From Methanococcoides sp. EBM-47 (GTDB lineage Archaea; Halobacteriota; Methanosarcinia; Methanosarcinales; Methanosarcinaceae): a stretch of 64,000 nucleotides of DNA. The stretch covers positions 124,001 to 188,000 of the forward strand of contig MPPA01000010.1 of the NCBI GenBank assembly GCA_001896725.1, given 5' to 3'. The translations under genes and the position numbers were made by a program. Below, one piece after another: positions 13,453-23,217 of this stretch. Under the pieces are notes generated by a model. It had not been told where the DNA came from, did not search any database, and saw nothing but the letters and a program-made list of their open reading frames with translations. Each line of letters opens with the position of its first letter. Position 1 is the stretch's first letter.

Positions 13453-14643
13453 ATGGATCATGATGTCATAGTTGTCGGTGGAGGACCAGGGGGTGCAATG
13501 GCTGCACGGACATGTGCTGAAAAAGGGCTGAAGGTGCTCCTTCTGGAAAAAGAGACAGTCCCACGCTACAAAGCTTGTGGCGGCGCAGTTTCCTGTAAAG
13601 CATTACAGATCATTGGCCCTATCGATGAGGTCCGGCCCCAATACAAGTGTTATGGAGCGACGGTATATTCCCCTGCAATGCGCAAGTTGTCATGCAAGCT
13701 CGATGAACCAGCATCAGTACTTGTTTTTCGCAGCTCTTTGGACCATTTTCTTTTAAAGCAGGCTCAAGACAAAGGCGCTAATATAAATACCGGTGAGAAA
13801 GCCATCTCAATAAATGTAACGGATGAACATGTCCATGTCATAACTTCAAAAGGAGAATATACCGCAAAGCTAATTATCGGAGCTGATGGGGTTAACAGCA
13901 CTGTTGCCAGGGAGACAGGTCTGAGAAAAAAATGGGAACCTGAAGGCTATGGGATATGCATTGAAACTGAGATCGAACTAACCCAGGAAGATGCAGAGAA
14001 ATGTGTACTTGACAAAGAACTGATAGAGGCTTATTTCCTCAAAAGCAGGGGATATGGCTGGATATTCCCAAAAGGGAATATAATGTCCATTGGTATAGGC
14101 CTGTGGAAACCGATAACCATTAAACCTATGCAAACCTTTGAGGATTTCATTTACTTCATTTCAAGGGAAAGGGGAGTGGATCTTGCTGCACATATCACTA
14201 AGAAGTTCATACACAGAATACCTGTGGGAGGTATTAGCAGAAAGACATACTCAGAAAAGGTACTCCTTGTGGGAGATGCTGCGGGTTTTGTGGACCCCTT
14301 TCTGGGCGAGGGCATATACTATGCAGTTGAGAGTGGTTTAGTGGCAGGTGAGGTTGCAGCTGAAGCGATCTATCATGGCACCGACCTTTCAACTTACAAA
14401 GAGAGATGTAATGCACTGTTTAACAATGATCTATATGTAGCTTTCAAATTTGGAAATGCATTCCATAAACATATAGAGAAAATATTCTATTTGTTTAGTA
14501 AGGACCCTGAGCTCTTTAAGATGTATGTGCTTACAGGAAAGGGAGTTCTGAATTATAGAAAATACATGAAGAAATGCATCACTCGAATACCTGTGACACT
14601 GCTCAAAGTAGCTGGCAGCATAATGAGGAATGAAAAGGAGTGA
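13453..14643 (+). CDS. Geranylgeranyl reductase family protein (archaeal lipid or quinone saturation)
   Basis: This 396-residue FAD-dependent reductase has an N-terminal dinucleotide-binding GGGPGGAMAARTCAEKG, the family YKACGGAVS, and a distal FAD motif VGDAAGFVDPFLGEGIYYA. Relatives saturate the isoprenoid chains of archaeal ether lipids (digeranylgeranylglycerophospholipid reductase) or of methanophenazine. Several paralogues usually occur, so the exact substrate is open. The start at ATG 13453 is chosen because AGGTGA lies 7 nt upstream; a GTG at 13444 is inside that site. A TATA-like CATATATAAC lies near 13341. The gene's stop overlaps the 3' end of RNase P RNA on the other strand. Confidence 0.88.
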   Translation: MDHDVIVVGGGPGGAMAARTCAEKGLKVLLLEKETVPRYKACGGAVSCKALQIIGPIDEVRPQYKCYGATVYSPAMRKLSCKLDEPASVLVFRSSLDHFLLKQAQDKGANINTGEKAISINVTDEHVHVITSKGEYTAKLIIGADGVNSTVARETGLRKKWEPEGYGICIETEIELTQEDAEKCVLDKELIEAYFLKSRGYGWIFPKGNIMSIGIGLWKPITIKPMQTFEDFIYFISRERGVDLAAHITKKFIHRIPVGGISRKTYSEKVLLVGDAAGFVDPFLGEGIYYAVESGLVAGEVAAEAIYHGTDLSTYKERCNALFNNDLYVAFKFGNAFHKHIEKIFYLFSKDPELFKMYVLTGKGVLNYRKYMKKCITRIPVTLLKVAGSIMRNEKE

Positions 14644-14993
14644 GGAGAGTAAGCTCCCTTCTGTTACTGCAAGGATCCCGATAGCACATGGCACTAAAGA
14701 GATAGCTGGTAGCGTTTGCAGCTGCGGCATTCGGCTAAGCGTCGTTAACTTCGGGCGCGGTCTGAACACCGCTTATCCCTACTTCTGACTTGCACCCACG
14801 AGGATTCGCCGTTCCATCCACGGTCCATACGACCTCAACCTTCTCAGTATCATTGCATTGGTATGGTGTGGTATCGTTTCTGTGCCAGAGCCCTGGCTCT
14901 CACCAGACACCCTTCACAGGTGTTCGTGTGCTCAGATGGTGGGGAGACTTTCCTCAGATCGTTGACCCGGAGGCCGCCCTTCCTCTCTCCAAT
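14642..14993 (-). ncRNA. rnpB: RNase P RNA (rnpB), archaeal type A
   Basis: Read on the minus strand, this stretch of about 350 nt contains the universal CR-I sequence GAGGAAAGTC (14946-14955 on the plus strand as GACTTTCCTC). Near its 3' end it has ACAGAAGGGAGCTTA, matching the CR-V region. The ends GGAGAG (14985-14990) and CTCTCC (14644-14649) pair as helix P1. A TATA-like TTTATAT at 15013-15019 (minus strand) sits about 25 nt before the inferred 5' end. The RNA processes tRNA 5' ends. Ends are inferred from P1 and are good to a few nucleotides. The 3' end overlaps the geranylgeranyl reductase stop codon. Confidence 0.93.
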
Positions 14994-16819: not shown

Positions 16820-16955
16820 ACGTGATTTACAAAGGTATGTAATAAGTACAATGAAAAAGAGGTGAACCTACTATAGGGTCATGGGACTTCCAAGACCCTC
16901 AATGATAAAAGTGTGTTCGCTTCCTATACCTATTGAAAAAAAGGAGAAAAACGCT

Positions 16956-17081
16956 ATGAAGTATGTTGCTGTAACATGTCAAAAGTGTGGTCGTAAGATG
17001 TATGTTCTGCGCAGGTGTGCACGTGACAAGATGTATTGCACCATTCGTTGTCTTGAAGCTGGCAATTTATTAAACGCCTGA
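16956..17081 (+). CDS. 41-residue zinc-binding protein
   Basis: This very short protein begins MKYVAVTCQKCGRKMY and has five cysteines: CQKC, one in RRCARD, and CTIRC. The CXXC and CXXXC pairs suggest a single zinc site. The start is firm because AAAGGAG lies about 8 nt upstream. Frames starting earlier (16881) have no ribosome binding site. It has no recognisable family and could bind nucleic acid or serve as a small partner protein. It is monocistronic and followed by a terminator-like hairpin. Confidence 0.65.
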   Translation: MKYVAVTCQKCGRKMYVLRRCARDKMYCTIRCLEAGNLLNA

Positions 17082-17267: not shown

Positions 17268-17681
17268 TCAGGTATGGTTCGCAGCCTCTTTTGTTTTATT
17301 GACCATCTGTGTAACTGTCTGGTTCAGATTCTCTGATACAACTACCTTTGTTTGATCAATGGTCTGGTTTGCAACGCTTCCCACCGCCTCTTTCGTCTGG
17401 TTCACAGCCTTGCTTACAGTCTGATTTATAGCTTGCCCTGCAGCTTCTTTTGACTGGTTCACAGCCTTGCTTACAGTCTGATTTATAGCTTGCCCTGCAG
17501 CTTCTTTCGTCTGGTTCACGGCTTTGCTTACAGTCTGGTTCATATTCTGTCCTACTGTTTCTTTCGTCTGGTTCACTCTCTCTCCCACAGTCTGCTCTAT
17601 GGTCTTGTCCATACATCCAGAAATTAATACTGCGCCTGTAACCAGCAACATCATTAATAAGAGCTTAAACATTTTCTGCAA
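17268..17681 (-). CDS. Repeat lipoprotein built from N-glycosylation sequons
   Basis: About 137 residues. After a hydrophobic signal (MFKLLLMMLLVTGAVLIS) a lipobox ISGC suggests lipid attachment at the cysteine. The mature part, about 115 residues, consists of repeats of 19 residues such as NQTVSKAVNQTKEAAGQAI. It contains eleven N-X-T/S sequons and no aromatic residues. Archaeal AglB could glycosylate many of these outside the cell. The heptad-like alanine pattern suggests a long helix. The start is uncertain: TTG 17681 has AGGTGA 5 nt upstream, while ATG 17687 and ATG 17672 are alternatives. No known family was recognised. It is transcribed alone. Confidence 0.75.
   Translation of the reverse strand: MQKMFKLLLMMLLVTGAVLISGCMDKTIEQTVGERVNQTKETVGQNMNQTVSKAVNQTKEAAGQAINQTVSKAVNQSKEAAGQAINQTVSKAVNQTKEAVGSVANQTIDQTKVVVSENLNQTVTQMVNKTKEAANHT
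17401..17535. repeat. 57-bp tandem repeats inside the lipoprotein gene
   Basis: The unit beginning TTCACAGCCTTGCTTACAGT occurs at 17401 and again at 17458, identical over more than 50 of 57 bases. A partial third copy starts at 17515. Each unit encodes 19 residues. The near identity points to recent copy-number change. Confidence 0.85.
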
Positions 17682-18219
17682 AATCATCACCTGTTCTGTC
17701 CTAATTGTATTCAGCAATAATGAAACTATTGTCCCCATCTTGTATATAGAACGAAAAATTCTTTGAAATGGAATTCAATACAACTCTCATTTAATATACA
17801 TGACACATCTGTTACTAGATCCCTGAGATGATGTTGTTACTGCTTTCTGGATACCTTTGTGTCCATTTTAGAGGATAAGCTCTGCTTCTTTTGGTCCTCT
17901 CTTTTAAATGTCAGTAAAGATATCTTTCCAGAACATTGCATTTTCTCTATCTATTATCCTTGCTCCCAGTATCTCTCTATATCCGACTTTCATTGCACCT
18001 GCCAATACAAATAAAGCTTTGTTTTTACATCACACATCACACATGGTCTTGCAACTTCCTAGTTATCCAAAATTCTAATAAGTTACAGGAATATCATAAT
18101 ACTATAATAGCAAAATAGGTACACTGCCATGTCCTCAGTTCTAAAAAGAAAGTATATGAGAAAGCCTCTTTGGCTTTAAATAATATTCTGTCAATTCATA
18201 CTATAAATGAGGTATGATC
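17682..18219. other. Intergenic region between divergent genes, nothing else seen
   Basis: The stretch is AT-rich and carries the divergent promoters of the lipoprotein and the DUF5788 gene. No open frame with protein-like composition and no strong inverted repeat was found. Confidence 0.4.

Positions 18220-22802: not shown

Positions 22803-23217
<415 letters not shown>

Follow-up and report, generated by a model that had tools for sequence, protein, structure and literature searches.

What kind of product is encoded by a small archaeal gene in which candidate N-glycosylation sites follow one another along nearly the whole exported chain, and are these sites maintained for their own sake? The question is raised by positions 17268-17681 (minus strand) of the window, the 64,000-nucleotide stretch of DNA analyzed here, which comes from a genome that GTDB places in one genus with Methanomethylovorans sp. 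PtaU1.Bin093. The original prediction, made from the sequence, placed a sequon-rich lipoprotein at these coordinates; in the literature we found nothing specific on sequon-rich archaeal lipoproteins or on the cell walls of Methanomethylovorans, and no glycoproteomic results for this genus.

Both the coordinates and the lipobox of that prediction are right. The reading frame specifies a precursor of 137 residues, starts with TTG and ends with the stop codon TGA at 17268-17270. A ribosome-binding site, AGGTG (17688-17692, minus strand), is kept in five of the six orthologues and lies 6 nt before the TTG; since AGGTG and TTG recur in this arrangement in most orthologues, the right end at 17681 is the likely start. 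About 60 nt upstream of the start, TATATA (17743-17748, minus strand) forms a putative TATA box with a presumed promoter function, and ATATA or TATATA is recurrent upstream of the gene in most orthologues. The signal peptide, MQKMFKLLLMMLLVTGAVLISG (17616-17681, minus strand), closes with the lipobox LISG followed by Cys; the motif, LLMMLLVTGAVLISG before the Cys, contains an SGC that is invariant across all orthologues. This lipobox supports the lipid anchor that had been proposed, and suggests that the mature Cys is lipidated and the protein thereby anchored in the membrane. The mature part (17271-17615, minus strand) comprises this Cys and 114 further residues, carries 11 sequons and is predicted to form a single helix; as first described, it lacks Phe, Trp and Tyr, and it also lacks Pro.

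At the window locus the gene stands by itself, flanked on one side by a DUF5788 gene and on the other by a small zinc-ribbon-like ORF. The small ORF (16881-17081, plus strand), just downstream and on the opposite strand, contains CxxC motifs, and its resemblance to a zinc ribbon falls below the cut-off. In five genomes of the genus the lipoprotein gene follows an MFS transporter gene, which in the window genome is located elsewhere (L049), so that the gene appears to have moved; its neighborhood gave no clue to function. Elsewhere in the window, an archaeal RNase P RNA gene (14638-14989, minus strand; 186 bits) underlies listed ORFs that are spurious, and about 16 AAT units (22882-22928) lie downstream of a gene for pyruvoyl-dependent arginine decarboxylase.

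The sequons far exceed what composition would yield. Eleven in about 115 mature residues had been claimed, and the count over exactly 115 residues confirms it: 11 of the 13 Asn lie within N-X-T/S sequons, whereas 100,000 shuffles of the residues gave a mean of 2.35 and a maximum of 8. Among 792 ORFs from 789 kb of stretches, about a third of the own genome, the lipoprotein ranks first by a wide margin in sequon density: its 9.6 sequons per 100 mature residues compare with 0.52 for the pooled ORFs and 3.5 for the runner-up lipobox protein. Chance or composition as the source of the sequons is ruled out by the shuffles together with this ranking.

The 19-residue repeats described initially are present, as a 57-bp tandem array (17389-17576, minus strand; Tandem Repeats Finder) whose unit carries two sequons and which extends over 3.3 copies with 88% matches, but they span only about half of the mature part. 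Near-identity of the repeat DNA, also part of the original prediction, holds for one pair of units (55 of 57 bases) and not for the third (44-46 of 57). Within the window protein the sequon spacing alternates between 11 and 8 and then changes to 15, 8 and 7 nearer the C-terminus. The gene occurs in all six genomes of the Methanomethylovorans group, with 10-12 sequons in each, and in G051 there is an additional partial copy; among 186 genomes of the order, no other gave a match to the orthologue alignment at E<=1e-8. Repeat number, suspected to be variable, does differ between species and by whole units: the window protein has one 19-residue unit more than its orthologues and the G036 orthologue an additional unit of 8 residues; the orthologues also vary in their C-terminal tails. 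Four of the six genomes further encode a shorter paralogue (L042:5824-6099 on C35 of the own genome, and L039, L040 and L041), which is likewise saturated with sequons (5-7 over 56-72 residues, irregularly spaced) and adjoins the genes for Trm56 and AMP phosphorylase.

Maintenance of the sites can be judged from the way in which the three positions of a sequon diverge. Across six related orthologues, whose repeats homogenize in concert and whose pairs are non-independent and phylogenetically uncorrected, mean pairwise column identity is 0.93 for the sequon Asn and 0.97 for the third position with Ser and Thr merged, whereas the middle residue reaches 0.58 and the remaining mature columns 0.64 (Asn versus middle, p=0.0009; third versus middle, p=0.0003). 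Codon pairs from the same sequences, and under the same reservations, show 49 synonymous and 10 non-synonymous differences at the Asn, 62 synonymous, 26 Ser-Thr and five sequon-breaking differences at the third position, 20 synonymous versus 63 non-synonymous at the middle position, and 290 versus 364 in other columns. The middle residue is a fair control, because it is mostly Gln, Glu or Lys, with two-fold codons like those of Asn; sequon columns were chosen by majority, a bias which the middle position shares and the other columns do not. As Asn and Ser/Thr are nearly fixed while the middle drifts and Thr is exchanged almost only with Ser, the aligned sequences indicate purifying selection on the sequon itself. 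Fixed ends around a free middle are what an oligosaccharyltransferase reads.

The corresponding enzyme is encoded in the same genome. Absence of an aglB gene had been named as a finding that would speak against glycosylation; the genome contains two AglB genes with STT3, AglB_core and AglB_L1 domains, and this genomic refutation therefore fails. One of them (L070:3719-6208) has a WWDYG motif and is located just after a family 2 glycosyltransferase gene, and the other (L085:12338-14689), with a WWDFG motif, stands at the end of a row of three glycosyltransferase genes. In Methanosarcina mazei, a member of the same family, surface proteins are N-glycosylated and an AglB was recovered by lectin capture (PMC4350412).

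A strongly helical pattern had also been noted, and structure prediction is in keeping with it: AlphaFold2 models the six orthologues as one unbroken helix over residues 2-133, with a pLDDT of about 91 over the core, in monomer runs only and with a method that favors long helices for such low-complexity sequences. In each of the six orthologues the hydrophobic stripe along this predicted helix recurs at 3.77-3.80 residues per turn, a periodicity that none of 500 shuffles reached. A straight helix has 3.63 residues per turn, higher values lead to a right-handed coiled coil, and a periodicity of 15/4, or 3.75, is right-handed as strongly as heptads are left-handed (PMC4786415); the stripe thus lies in the right-handed range of that criterion. 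The 19-residue unit itself corresponds to 19/5, or 3.80 residues per turn, and nonadecads are named among the known non-canonical coiled-coil classes (PMC10425188). The sequon spacings of 4, 8, 11 and 15 are each close to whole turns at the stripe period, and every sequon Asn keeps the same phase relative to the stripe, at 83-152 degrees from its centre (R 0.94-0.95), a statistic that is in part a consequence of the repeat. This phase is also kept where the 19-residue repeat breaks down. Oligomerization as a coiled coil may follow from such a geometry.

A relative in the sister genus g5, probably Methanolobus, places these features in a wider context. Its acidic helical lipoprotein is a likely homologue, judged by a closely similar signal peptide, the SGCAD motif, helical repeats and the lack of aromatic residues; it differs in being strongly acidic, in having 11-residue repeats (AENVTED...) in several members and in carrying 0-6 sequons. 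Those g5 members that have at least three sequons exceed the shuffled expectation. Over nine g5-type proteins, the less negative the charge, the higher the sequon density (Spearman 0.92, with no correction for relatedness and partly compositional), which suggests that the coat of the rod may consist either of acidic residues or of glycans. Because the likely homologue can have as few as no sequons, glycosylation appears dispensable in the wider family, whose members would not all share its high density. At each of the ten loci seen (L017, L019, L020, L030, L032 and others), the g5 gene adjoins that for pyruvoyl-dependent arginine decarboxylase, and a polyamine neighborhood is possible there; a GNAT acetyltransferase gene adjoins it in five of the ten and also occurs near the paralogue of the Methanomethylovorans group.

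Sequon runs were encountered in further genera. Secreted proteins of genus g8 (L013, minus strand, from the ORF at 1468, and L034, plus strand, from the ORF at 446) have an N-terminal run of NxSV sequons at four-residue spacing; a folded domain comes next, and a C-terminal segment is hydrophobic. The long NQSI runs of L012, L021 and L027, from other genera, were rejected as relatives and are unrelated simple NxS repeats; being open in two or three frames, they represent tandem DNA repeats and not genes.

An unmodified amphipathic helix, LEA-like or phasin-like, would account for part of these observations, with the N-Q-T motifs serving packing or solubility and the sequons arising as a by-product of repeat amplification. 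Amplification does copy motifs, the likely g5 homologues are helices of acidic, Ala/Glu type in which sequons are few or absent, and such a protein would be consistent with the weak matches, below threshold, that were obtained to helical families such as PhaP and perilipin. Nevertheless, we regard this explanation as unlikely, since the retention of Asn and Ser/Thr around a free middle, with a third position that alternates almost only between Ser and Thr, is the signature of an oligosaccharyltransferase and not of packing; moreover, the paralogue retains sequons at other spacings, and, at 3.78 residues per turn, the stripe would wind round the helix rather than lie flat on a membrane.

Two further explanations, both of which we consider quite improbable, accept a role at the cell surface and shift the emphasis. 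The lipoprotein could be the scaffold of a long surface polysaccharide, in which the chains on the sequons build an outer matrix instead of being short N-glycans; some Methanosarcina have a methanochondroitin layer (PMC5744192), and a high density of sites on a protein without any other domain would suit a carrier, yet no polysaccharide-synthesis genes were seen beside the gene, whose neighbor elsewhere is an MFS transporter. Alternatively, it could be a spacer or tether between membrane and S-layer whose length, set by the repeats, matters more than its glycans. Variation of the repeat number by single units and an unbroken helix that begins at the lipid anchor would agree with this, but a spacer alone leaves the conservation of the sequons unexplained, and an S-layer-binding motif was not seen.

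The reading which we prefer, and hold to be somewhat better than an even chance, is that of a lipid-anchored, N-glycosylated and glycan-coated helical rod or bristle of about 17 nm. The secreted lipoprotein would be held in the cell membrane via its lipidated N-terminal Cys, and the remainder would be a continuous alpha helix, of the stated length if extended (115 residues x 0.15 nm), which probably associates with further copies of the protein as a right-handed coiled coil via a stripe of Val, Ile and Ala at about 3.8 residues per turn. AglB would add N-glycans at many of the sequons during export, although sequons within a stable helix are less usual substrates of oligosaccharyltransferases than those in turns. 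With the Asn on one side and away from the stripe, the rod would stand as a bristle or spacer with a glycan coat in the space that separates membrane and S-layer, and would hydrate and shield the cell surface. Of this picture, the sequence anatomy, the selection on the sequons, the locking of their phase to the stripe and the presence of AglB are established and the helix is predicted, whereas lipidation, occupancy of the sites, oligomerization and the shielding role are what we infer. More tentatively, and with considerable doubt, the lipoprotein may represent a new class, namely a lipid-anchored, right-handed coiled-coil bristle with a 19-residue (19/5) repeat that sets a site for an N-glycan on one face at intervals of two or three turns. 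In such a family glycans and acidic residues would be interchangeable as a coat, sequons being fewer where the helix is more acidic.

If the sites are used, the protein would be a far denser substrate of N-glycosylation than the archaeal lipoproteins available for comparison, small enough to act as a reporter for site use by AglB, and a naturally occurring case in which to test how an oligosaccharyltransferase handles sites that finally lie within an unbroken helix. The protein also offers a lead on how the space between membrane and S-layer is filled in methylotrophic methanogens.

Searches of family collections assign the lipoprotein to no named family: all Pfam matches remain below the cut-off, including the PhaP phasin (PF09602; 17.7 against a gathering cut-off of 28.3 bits), LEA group 3 (LEA_4) is absent among Pfam matches at E up to 1, and a sequence search of the PDB gave no match at E<=0.01. 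The best NCBIfam match, the Ag473 family (NF047840), scores 32.2 bits (E 1.5e-7), so far below the cut-off of 100 bits that the lipoprotein is not a member but an analogue. Ag473 of Neisseria is likewise a small surface lipoprotein with tandem repeats, rich in Ala and devoid of aromatic residues (PMC3402496); unlike the window protein it is bacterial, has 7-residue repeats and carries O-linked glycans, being listed among O-glycoproteins (PMC11130364). Closer in their chemistry, lipobox proteins of Haloferax volcanii also have N-X-S/T sites and are glycosylated there by AglB; those examined here have one or two confirmed sites each, against 11 helix-phased candidate sites in 115 residues of the window protein, and the highest site count given for the species, 19, belongs to its largest protein (PMC8241124).

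The architecture recalls tetrabrachion of Staphylothermus marinus (PMC5744192), the stalk of an archaeal surface glycoprotein and a right-handed coiled coil with a period above 3.63. As an S-layer stalk 70 nm long, with 11-residue repeats and arms rich in beta structure (PMC5744192), tetrabrachion differs from the window lipoprotein, which is small, has a 19-residue repeat and no other domain; homology between the two was not found by sequence (Pfam and PDB searches). The likeness to a small mucin in the original prediction does not hold, because a mucin has disordered tandem repeats, rich in Pro, Ser and Thr, for O-glycans, whereas here the helix is predicted to be ordered, is free of proline and bears sites of the N-type rather than the O-type, most of its Thr lying inside N-sequons; the lipoprotein is better compared with a coiled-coil stalk.
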